Source: Paracoccaceae bacterium (GTDB lineage: Bacteria > Pseudomonadota > Alphaproteobacteria > Rhodobacterales > Rhodobacteraceae). Taken from it: a DNA stretch of 33,532 nucleotides. Shown piece after piece: positions 7,413-11,936 of this stretch. Both the position numbers and the translations under genes were made by a program. Numbering within the stretch: position 1 is the stretch's first letter; each line of letters begins with the position of its first letter. Location: positions 1 to 33,532 of the forward strand of contig JAPYON010000015.1 in NCBI GenBank assembly GCA_029938175.1, given 5' to 3'. The notes below the pieces were generated by a model. That model made no database searches. It saw only the letters and a program-made list of their open reading frames with translations, and was not told the DNA's origin.

Positions 7413-7820
7413 GCGAAACCTGACGGAATAGTTTCGTTTTACGTATGGGATTACCCAGAAGTTAGCGCTGGCTTTATCAGTGCGTTCTGGAAGGCAGCAG
7501 CCGAGTTGGATGATAAGGTCGAAGGCCTGAAGGAAGGTAAGCGGTTTCCGTATTGAACACCTCAAGGCCTGTCTGCCCTCTGTCAAAAAACCAGGCTAAG
7601 TTCGGTGACGGTTGAGGCGATAGATATTGATTGTGTGTTCGCAACGTTTGAAGATTTCTGGCGGCCCTTCACACTCGGCGCGGGCCCAGCACTTGGATAC
7701 TGCATGTCGTTGGAGCAACCTCAACGGGAAGCGTTGAGAGCATTGTTAGAGAAGAACATTGGGTTGCGTGGCGAAATTATCATGCCGGCACGCGCTTGGG
7801 CGGTTAAAGCAGCCGCTTAG
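7413..7820 (+). pseudogene. Remnant of a class I SAM-dependent methyltransferase (C-terminal part only, with in-frame TGA)
   Basis: Continuous frame AKPDGIVSFYVWDYPEVSAGFISAFWKAAAELDDKVEGLKEGKRFPY*TPQGLSALCQ...VEAIDIDCVFATFEDFWRPFTLGAGPALGYCMSLEQPQREALRALL...[12 protein letters not shown], interrupted by TGA at 7554-7556; no N-terminal SAM-binding region upstream. Confidence 0.7.
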
Positions 7821-8245
7821 GAACTTTTCCGCAGCCGTATAACCACATCAATCTTTGAAATCTCGGCACCTTCAGGCAAATCCGGCAGACTTTTGAACTT
7901 CACCGAACCAACGGGTGCATCCGTAAGCACACCCTCGTCTTCCCAATAGAAATGCGAGTGGTCTTCAACCCGAGTGTCGTAATACGAACGATGCCCGTCT
8001 ACGCTGACTTCGCGCATAAGGCCGGCCTCGCAGAACGCGCCGAGCGTGTTGTAGACCGTGGCCAAAGAAACTTTTGTATCGGAATCGTGCGTTAGGTCGA
8101 ACAAGGACTCTGCTGTTACGTGGCGGTCTTGTCCATCGCCTACCAGCAGATCGGCCAAAAACAGGCGTTGGCGTGTCGGGCGCAAATCTCCGCCGGACAG
8201 CCAAGTCGAGGCACGTTGATGCGGGTTTTGAATTTGCAGGTTCAT
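7817..8245 (-). CDS. irr: Fur-family transcriptional regulator, probably the iron response regulator Irr
   Basis: [15 protein letters not shown]...[11 protein letters not shown]...[22 protein letters not shown]...[10 protein letters not shown]: Fur fold with Irr-like sequence; divergent from fabA-fabB-fabI. Confidence 0.82.
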
Positions 8246-8915: not shown

Positions 8916-10142
8916 ATGCGTCGCGTAGTTATCACCGGTCTCGGGATCGTTTCGTCAATTGGCAATAACGCTGAAGAGGTTCTTGCCTCGTTGAAGGCAC
9001 AGAAATCCGGCATTACTTTTGCACCGACTTATGCGGAACATGGGTTCCGTAGTCAAATCCACGGAATGCCGACAGTTGATCTGAAGGAAAGCATCGACAA
9101 ACGTATCTGGCGGTTTATGGGAGACGGTGCGGGCTATTCTTACCTGTCCATGGAGCAGGCGATTGCGGATGCAGGGCTTGAAGAAAGCGACGTTTCAAAC
9201 GAGCGCACAGGCCTGATTGTTGGCTCGGGTGGTCCTTCAACCAAACATTTGCATGATGCGCATAACATCGTGGTGGAAAAAGGCGCGCCCAAGCGTATGG
9301 GGCCGTTTATGGTTACACGCGGGATGTCTTCGACGACTTCGGCCTGTCTGGCAACGCCGTTCAAGATCAAAGGCGTTAACTATTCTATAACCTCTGCCTG
9401 TTCGACCTCGGCGCATTGTATTGGTAATGGTGTTGAGCAAATTCAGTTTGGCAAGCAGGACATTGTGTTCGCTGGCGGTGGCGAGGAACTGGACTGGACC
9501 TTGTCCTGTCTATTCGACGCGATGGGCGCGATGTCGTCCAAGTATAACGACGCACCGGAAACGGCAGCACGGGCGTTCGATGCAACGCGTGACGGGTTTG
9601 TGATTGCAGGCGGCGGTGGCATGGTTGTGCTTGAGGAGCTGGAGCATGCGAAGGCGCGTGGTGCAAAAATTTATGCCGAGGTTACGGGCTACGGTGCTAC
9701 ATCGGATGGTTACGACATGGTTGCCCCTTCGGGTGAGGGTGGCGAGCGGTCGATGAAGCTGGCGATATCTACGTTGGGTGATCGCAAGGTAGATTATATC
9801 AACGCGCACGGCACGTCGACTCCGGTTGGCGATGTGAAAGAAGTCGAGGCTGTCCGTCGGATATTCGGTGAGGGTTCGACCCCGCTGATTTCCTCGACAA
9901 AATCGCTGACAGGGCACAGCCTTGGCGCGACGGGTGTGCAGGAGGCGATCTATTGTCTGATGATGTTGCAGAATGATTTCATAGTTGGTTCGGCGAATGT
10001 GATGGAACTCGATCCAGAGTTATCTGCAAGCGAGATTGCCACGGCGAATATCGAGAACGCGGGGCTGGATACGGTGATTTCGAACAGCTTCGGTTTTGGT
10101 GGCACGAACGCGACACTAGCGATGAGCAAATATCATGGCTGA
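8916..10142 (+). CDS. fabB: Beta-ketoacyl-ACP synthase I
   Basis: [18 protein letters not shown], active-site region [34 protein letters not shown]. Confidence 0.95.
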
Positions 10143-10923
10143 TTTAATGAAGGGCAAACGCGGGCTGGTTATGGGCGTCGCGAATGAACGCTCGATCGCT
10201 TGGAGTATTGCCAAAGTTCTGGCGGAAGAGGGCGCGGAACTGGCATTCACATATCAGGGCGAGGGTTTTGGTAAACGCTTGCGCCCGCTGGCTGAAAGCA
10301 TTGGTTCGTCGCTGGTTATTCCGGCTGACGTGCAGGATGAAGCCTCGCTTGATACTACGTTCAAAACGTTGAAAGACGAGTGGGGCACTATTGATTTTCT
10401 GGTTCACGCCATCGCCTATTCTGACAAGGAAGAACTGGCGGGGCGGTTTATTGATACCTCGCGCAAGAACTTTTTGAACTCGCTGGATATTTCGTGCTTC
10501 AGCTTTGTGGACGTTGCCAAACGAGCGGCGGCGCTGATGCCGGACGGCGGCTCGATGATAACGCTGACCTATATGGGCAGCAACCGCGTGCAGCCGAATT
10601 ATAATGTCATGGGTGTGGCGAAAGCGGCGCTTGAAAGTTCGGTCCGGTATTTGGCAAACGACCTTGGCCCTGACAACATTCGTGTGAATGCGGTTAGCCC
10701 CGGTCCGATGAAAACGCTGGCGGGTGCTGCAATTGGCGGGGCGCGTAAAGTGTACCGCACGATTGGCGAGAATGCGCCATTACGGTCCAACGCCACACCG
10801 GATTCGGTGGGTGGAACCGCGGCATTTTTGCTGTCGGACTACGGTGCATTCACTACTGGCGAGATAATCCGTGTGGACGGCGGTTATCACATAATGGGCA
10901 TGATGCAGTCCGAAAACCTTTAA
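10135..10923 (+). CDS. fabI: Enoyl-ACP reductase [NADH]
   Basis: [61 protein letters not shown]; 8-nt overlap with fabB. Confidence 0.95.
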
Positions 10924-10943
10924 CGCTAAATTGCTTTTAACAA

Positions 10944-10983
10944 TGGTTCCTCTTGTGCCAATGTACGGGCAGCGGAGGAACCA
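10944..10983 (+). promoter_or_regulatory. 5' UTR hairpin sequestering the Shine-Dalgarno of the HAD dehalogenase gene
   Basis: Perfect 9-bp arms TGGTTCCTC / GAGGAACCA with inner TGCC/GGCA pairing; the right arm contains the GGAGGA SD just before ATG 10987. Confidence 0.55.
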
Positions 10984-10986
10984 ACT

Positions 10987-11670
10987 ATGCCAATCACCAC
11001 ATGTGTATTCGATGCCTATGGCACCCTGTTTGACGTGGCCGCTGCCGCGCGGATAGCCGCCGCAGAACCCGGCCGCGAGGCTTTTGCTGCCAAATGGCCG
11101 CTTATCGCGCAGGATTGGCGGCTTAAGCAGTTGCAATACACTTGGCTGCGGGCTGTTGCTGACGCGCACACGGATTTCTGGGAAGTAACGCAAAACGGGT
11201 TGGATTACGCGCTAGAGGCCTCTGGTATTGATGATGACGAACTGCGAGAACGATTGTTGGCATTGTATTGGGAATTATCAGCCTTCCCCGAGGTTCCGGC
11301 GATGTTGAAGGCGTTGAAAGACGCTGGGATGCAGACGGCGATACTTTCGAACGGCTCGCCTGAAATGCTACAAGGGGCGGTAAAAAGTGCCGGAATTTCC
11401 GACCTGCTGGACGACGTTCTAAGCGTTCAGGATGTGGGCGTGTTCAAGCCACACCGTTTTGTCTACGACATGGTTTGTGATCGTTTTGGATGCGAGAAAT
11501 CCGAGGTGTTGTTCGTGTCTTCGAATGGTTGGGATGCAGCGAATGCAGCGGGTTATGGATTCTACACCGCTTGGGTGAACCGCCCCGGCGAGCCAATGGA
11601 TCGCCTGCCGTGGAAGCCGCAAAAAGTGATGTCGGATTTGACCGGAATACCGGAACTGGCAAAGGGATAA
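10987..11670 (+). CDS. Haloacid dehalogenase type II-like HAD hydrolase
   Basis: CVFDAYGTLFDVAAA motif I, ILSNGSPEML motif II, FKPHRFVYDM motif III, FVSSNGWDAANAAGYGFYTAWVNR motif IV. Confidence 0.9.
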   Translation: MPITTCVFDAYGTLFDVAAAARIAAAEPGREAFAAKWPLIAQDWRLKQLQYTWLRAVADAHTDFWEVTQNGLDYALEASGIDDDELRERLLALYWELSAFPEVPAMLKALKDAGMQTAILSNGSPEMLQGAVKSAGISDLLDDVLSVQDVGVFKPHRFVYDMVCDRFGCEKSEVLFVSSNGWDAANAAGYGFYTAWVNRPGEPMDRLPWKPQKVMSDLTGIPELAKG

Positions 11671-11672
11671 GT

Positions 11673-11936
11673 ATGAAATTCACCACATCCGAAGGGCTTC
11701 AATTGGCCTCTGAAGACGAGGGCGAGGGGCCGATGTTTGACGCCCTGGAAGGGTTGCCGCTTGCGTTGATACGCGGTGCAAATTCAAACCTGTTGACCGA
11801 GGAAAGCGAGGCCGAGATGCAACGCCGTCGGCCAGATATGCTTTACGCTAACGTGCCGGACAGAGGGCATGTGCCGTTTTTGAACGAAACGCAGTCTGTT
11901 ACCGTGATTGAAAAGCTGATTGGGCAAGTTGGATGA
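11673..11936 (+). pseudogene. Alpha/beta hydrolase with large internal in-frame deletion (87 aa left)
   Basis: N-terminal MKFTTSEGLQLASEDEGEGP fused directly to C-terminal MFDALEGLPLALIRGANSNLLTEESEAEMQRRRPDMLYANVPDRGHVPFLNE; no GxSxG nucleophile elbow. Confidence 0.7.

Follow-up and report, generated by a model that had tools for sequence, protein, structure and literature searches.

The junction of fabI and the dehalogenase gene

The gene considered here encodes a haloacid dehalogenase (HAD) of type II, whose nearest solved structures are L-2-haloacid dehalogenases. It lies in the window, the whole stretch of 33,532 nucleotides that was analysed, which comes from a small Rhodobacteraceae MAG of 2.1 Mb. 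Its co-directional upstream neighbour is fabI, in the order fabA, fabB, fabI, and the fabI stop is separated from ATG 10987 by 63 nt. The compact operon proposed downstream of the gene was recovered, with tightly packed genes following the HAD gene (10987-11670) at ATG 11673 and then at 11933, 12900, and 13980. The genes and the hairpin between them are as follows:

10135 to 10923, + strand: fabI, enoyl-ACP reductase (NCBIfam and Pfam FabI matches), with its stop ending at 10923
10944 to 10952, + strand: left arm of the hairpin, TGGTTCCTC (from the sequence and the fold; 10953 adds a U-G pair)
10956 to 10971, + strand: inner helix TGCC (10956-10959)/GGCA (10968-10971) with an 8-nt loop (predicted fold; kept in seven of eight core-clade sequences)
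10974 to 10979, + strand: Shine-Dalgarno (SD) sequence GGAGGA (from the sequence)
10975 to 10983, + strand: right arm of the hairpin, GAGGAACCA (SD and AAC invariant in eight relatives, last two positions variable)
10987 to 11670, + strand: haloacid dehalogenase type II gene (TIGR01428, 200.9 bits against a cut-off of 125.4)

Two further observations concern the surroundings. The 87-aa ORF at 11673-11936, directly after the HAD gene, matches only both ends of a 274-aa alpha/beta hydrolase that occupies the corresponding place in four relatives (L004-L006 and L009); the interior, approximately 187 residues with GTSRGG among them, is lost in frame, so that either the gene has suffered a deletion or the assembly has collapsed here. 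An Irr-type Fur-family regulator gene (7817-8245, - strand) is divergent to fabA and lies 13 nt from the annotated-length ORF start of fabA.

The hairpin had been described with 9-bp arms and a second TGCC/GGCA helix closed by an 8-nt loop, and this structure is present: TGGTTCCTC and GAGGAACCA are perfectly complementary over 9 bp, a T10953-G10974 wobble lengthens the outer helix to 10 pairs, and the two helices together form the predicted MFE structure in a single-strand fold of 10925-11010. The MFE of -26.2 kcal/mol (z -2.9) was equalled by two of 200 shuffles. GGAGGA does lie in the hairpin, as claimed, but it ends 7 nt before ATG 10987 and not 4. No terminator-like site was found by scanning the + strand between fabI and the HAD gene. 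An intrinsic terminator of fabI, which needs a GC-rich stem and a T run, was considered and rejected, the right arm being followed by ACTATGCC.

The hairpin exceeds chance expectation. The proposed sequestration of the SD is supported by a predicted opening cost of 14.4 kcal/mol, which no other of the 90 genes sampled from the same genome approaches (next 8.8, mean 3.5, sd 2.3), a background that covers RNA from -70 to +24 of 90 predicted genes in approximately 179 kb (20 stretches and the window) and is approximate because the gene calls came from a simple script. With approximately 30 genes in the window, choosing the dehalogenase gene costs a factor of approximately 30, and the outlier result still holds. 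When 11 bases of the promoter spacer described below were varied and the rest was kept fixed, two of 3000 random spacers reached the observed opening cost, and permutation of the spacer alone gave none as strong in 3000.

Promoter motif and predicted transcription start

HAD orthologues were gathered from 13 members of the genus and from many other genera, and their leaders were aligned at the start codon. In the Rhodobacteraceae, 108 orthologous leaders yielded a two-block promoter motif, CTTTtCC-N12/13-TGTGCCAatcT, which accompanies the HAD gene whether fabI or another gene lies upstream. Conservation in the second block is highest at T-15 (91%), G-14 (95%), A-11 (93%), and T-7 (95%), which are the extended -10 element positions of sigma-70 promoters. 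In a held-out test, 34 of 40 leaders scored above the 99th percentile of dinucleotide shuffles (training n = 108), a test that is not fully independent because training and held-out leaders belong to a single family and at least one leader is present in both groups (L153/L128). Among 112 leaders, a purine follows the -10 at base 7 in 79% and at base 8 in 94%, with a preceding pyrimidine in 68%; these positions lie outside the motif fit, and the SD purines, which begin a few bases later, may contribute to the signature. The corresponding features in the window are as follows:

10936 to 10941, + strand: predicted -35 element TTTAAC, family consensus cTTTtCC (two-block motif and held-out test; invariant in the core clade)
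10942 to 10958, + strand: promoter spacer of 17 nt, which includes the TG of the extended -10 and the left arm (unchanged at 16 of 17 columns across eight relatives)
10959 to 10964, + strand: predicted -10 hexamer CAATGT, extended with TG at 10956-10957 (best motif match in 179 kb of its own genome)
10971 to 10972, + strand: predicted transcription start at A or G (purine signature at bases 7 and 8 after the -10)

The predicted -35 and -10 elements are thus 17 nt apart. The window scores 24.3 bits against 14.5 for the best unrelated site in 179 kb of its own genome, where no other strong motif site was found. This candidate promoter is missed by a generic sigma-70 scan (TTGACA/TATAAT); the case for it is made by comparative conservation. 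More than 60% of alphaproteobacterial -10 elements lack T at -7 (PMC8407463), unlike the predicted HAD -10, which carries it. Taken on sequence comparison, the motif is the predicted dedicated promoter of type II haloacid dehalogenase genes across the Rhodobacteraceae, for instance in L025, L036, L045, and L160. A search for a regulon with a looser promoter pattern in 12 genomes gave approximately as many matches as the reversed control.

Other recurring elements were seen in the same material. In Ruegeria and Sulfitobacter leaders (e.g., L077 and L096), TGTAAACCC or TACAATTT recurs approximately 10 nt upstream of the -35 block and may serve for activator binding or as an upstream element of the promoter. 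The pattern search also returned a recurring CTTTTGACA-N-ACAAAA-N-TGTGNCA in three genomes (L196, L201, and L202), which is probably a further conserved promoter, its -35 being TTGACA.

Constraint on the left arm and leaders of relatives

The core clade comprises eight sequences (L002-L006, L008, L009, and L015), within which the dehalogenase gene has diverged considerably, with approximately 51% of its 4-fold sites differing between core-clade pairs (nine sequences). In the spacer, 16 of 17 columns are invariant, against approximately 9% of the 4-fold columns of the two flanking genes; the associated probability assumes independent sites and ignores shared ancestry and is readable only as very small. 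The sole spacer change is shared by L008 and L009, where T replaces C10950 and the pairing is kept as G-U. Spacer sites differ by 3.6% in the core clade and by approximately 69% in other family pairs of similar divergence. Left-arm conservation, on which the original prediction had been made to depend, is therefore real but clade-specific, strong among the nearest relatives and lacking elsewhere in the family. The whole 29-nt block from the -35 to the -10 is invariant in the core clade except for that spacer change and one change in the -10, and the invariance of the right arm reaches past the SD to AAC, that is, over the paired stretch. In L006, a 13-pair helix is retained despite an indel.

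Covariation analysis of the orthologous leaders, proposed as a check on the hairpin, gave no support because the core-clade arms do not vary. T10944 and G10945 are invariant even where their partners have changed (in four and two of the eight sequences, respectively), which suggests a DNA-level role as well, and the constraint does not by itself establish a role at the RNA level. With up to three mismatches allowed, the hairpin block has no other copy in the 13 genomes of the genus.

Beyond the core clade, the genus relative L010, whose dehalogenase gene starts 64 nt after fabI, has a hairpin of unrelated sequence over its SD (-36.2 kcal/mol, z -6.5). Its predicted start would remove this hairpin and lower the SD opening cost from 9.8 to 2.8. 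The hairpins of L011, L013, and L014 are weak by whole-fold z-score, and the fabI-adjacent leaders outside the genus (L032, L037, L069, and L092) have no strong hairpin. Across the family, the opening cost is 7.2 for co-directional leaders and 6.5 for the others, a difference that includes the window's genus. A hairpin conserved over the whole family was rejected, only four of 133 non-genus leaders exceeding shuffles at p < 0.05; the non-genus leaders show a small excess of SD pairing, with a mean of 4.87 against 4.51 Watson–Crick pairs. Separately, a second dehalogenase copy in G002, one of the genus genomes (L016, 81% identical), is without promoter motif or strong hairpin. Both are likewise lacking in L069, where 37 nt separate the dehalogenase gene from fabI, as would suit expression by read-through.

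Proposed silencing of read-through mRNA and its alternatives

The best explanation of these features, and one that leans slightly to the probable side, is that the hairpin is a promoter-embedded silencer of read-through mRNA and not a switch in the dehalogenase's own leader. The left arm lies within the promoter spacer and the predicted start is at approximately 10971, so the arm would be outside the gene's own mRNA, and the hairpin would therefore form only in transcripts that arrive from upstream. Polymerase coming from fabI would produce an RNA with both arms, which would pair, bury the SD, and leave the dehalogenase untranslated. The gene's own promoter (-35 at 10936-10941 and extended -10 TGC-CAATGT ending at 10964) would give an RNA from approximately 10971, past the left arm, and this short mRNA, with a leader of approximately 16 nt, would have a free SD and be translated. 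Three features that such a silencer calls for are seen or predicted at the locus: the predicted opening costs place the SD in a stable stem of long transcripts (14.2-14.9 kcal/mol for RNAs starting at 10924-10944; 14.2 from 10924 vs. 5.1 from 10971), the predicted start follows the 5′ arm, and the co-directional fabI lies 63 nt upstream with no recognisable terminator. As a general rule, the arrangement is contradicted by the fabI-adjacent leaders outside the genus.

The original prediction placed a translational switch in the gene's own mRNA, which would have to start upstream of 10944 and to be opened by a protein, a small RNA, or a metabolite. The strong sequestration of the SD and the clade-specific constraint on the left arm would suit such a switch, but the -10 (10959-10964) falls within the hairpin, and the conserved promoter and the start-purine signature place the predicted start downstream of 10952, which the prediction itself had named as evidence against it. 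An RNA thermometer is improbable, with a predicted opening cost for the RNA from 10924 of 16.1 kcal/mol at 10 °C, 14.2 at 37 °C, and still 10.4 at 60 °C. The likeness to ROSE and FourU thermometers consists in an SD paired in a leader hairpin; the HAD hairpin differs in having no U-tract pairing, a very stable predicted helix, and a left arm predicted to lie outside the gene's own mRNA. Nor does a small riboswitch fit: Rfam gave no match at the gathering threshold and none on 10880-11060 at E up to 1, conservation of the hairpin does not extend over the family, and a known aptamer would not fit into an 8-nt loop and an internal loop of 2x2 or 3x3. A switch in the gene's own mRNA is accordingly considered very unlikely. 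A little less credit still is given to a role for fabI, as a 3′ end-stabilising or processing structure of its mRNA. The hairpin does lie 20-60 nt after the fabI stop in genus members with adjacent fabI, and L010 has a very stable version, but there is no T-tract or terminator, and a 3′ stabiliser would have no need of exact pairing with the SD, whereas here it is the outer helix that pairs with it.

The pairing could also be a chance by-product, pyrimidine-rich promoter spacers being naturally complementary to purine-rich SDs. The small general excess of SD pairing in non-genus leaders is what would be expected where C/T-rich promoters meet G/A-rich SDs; the strength and the constraint in the core clade far exceed it, and this account is the least credible of those weighed here. 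An unlikely but more substantial alternative is an element acting on DNA only, in which a regulator or an unusual polymerase contact reads the spacer between the -35 and the -10, its complementarity to the SD being a coincidence. The invariance of the 29-nt block includes unpaired positions and arm positions with a lost partner, and TGG..C.....G..CCA (10944-10960) is weakly palindromic. The RNA-level reading is nevertheless favoured by the rarity of the match (such masking of the SD in only approximately two of 3000 random spacers), by the conservation of the right arm past the SD, by the retained helix in L006, and by the matching design in L010 with another sequence. The block is, moreover, unique in the 13 genus genomes, so that no regulon is seen.

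Read-through silencing of this kind resembles several known systems. IS10 and other transposase genes are protected by fold-back inhibition of read-through mRNA, the likeness being a gene shielded from translation of outside transcripts and the difference the mobile-element context. For T4 gene e (lysozyme) and I-TevI, longer upstream-initiated transcripts fold a hairpin over the ribosome-binding site, and promoters directly ahead of that site, within the DNA of the 5′ strand, give transcripts that lack that strand and are translated (PMC3014915). Common to gene e and the present case are an SD hairpin found only in the long RNA and promoter DNA that overlaps the 5′ arm, both predicted here. 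Gene e is, however, a phage gene with timed late promoters and a measured effect of approximately 100-fold, whereas the HAD hairpin is known from sequence alone and belongs to a chromosomal metabolic gene with a conserved extended -10 promoter and no sequence relation to gene e. In B. subtilis, a hairpin has been proposed to block translation of upstream-operon read-through into sigG, which follows spoIIGA-sigE (PMC5942855). There too, the gene's own promoter yields an RNA in which the large hairpin cannot form, as is predicted for the HAD gene. The sigG case differs in a hairpin of 20 or more pairs, in its setting at a sporulation sigma gene, and in a further small RBS hairpin that the sigG mRNA itself carries, and it is not homologous. 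The resemblance to gene e and sigG would thus be one of working principle, and no homology is claimed. The design is already known from these cases, and the HAD hairpin most likely adds a further instance of it.

It is also possible, though this is advanced tentatively, that in this marine lineage of Rhodobacteraceae one stretch of 30 nt has been selected twice, as promoter spacer and as anti-SD arm, so that fabI, a housekeeping gene of fatty-acid synthesis, and the dehalogenase operon are translated independently at a distance of 63 nt without a terminator, and that relatives in the genus have reached such a layout by way of unrelated sequences. If the reading as a read-through silencer is true, it would be a chromosomal, non-sporulation case of a device described chiefly for genes of phages and of sporulation, and neighbouring operons would be insulated at translation instead of by a terminator. 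SD-masking hairpins found by folding or by eye need a promoter check, since the masking arm may be absent from the gene's own mRNA. The predicted dehalogenase promoter motif across the Rhodobacteraceae is useful in itself.
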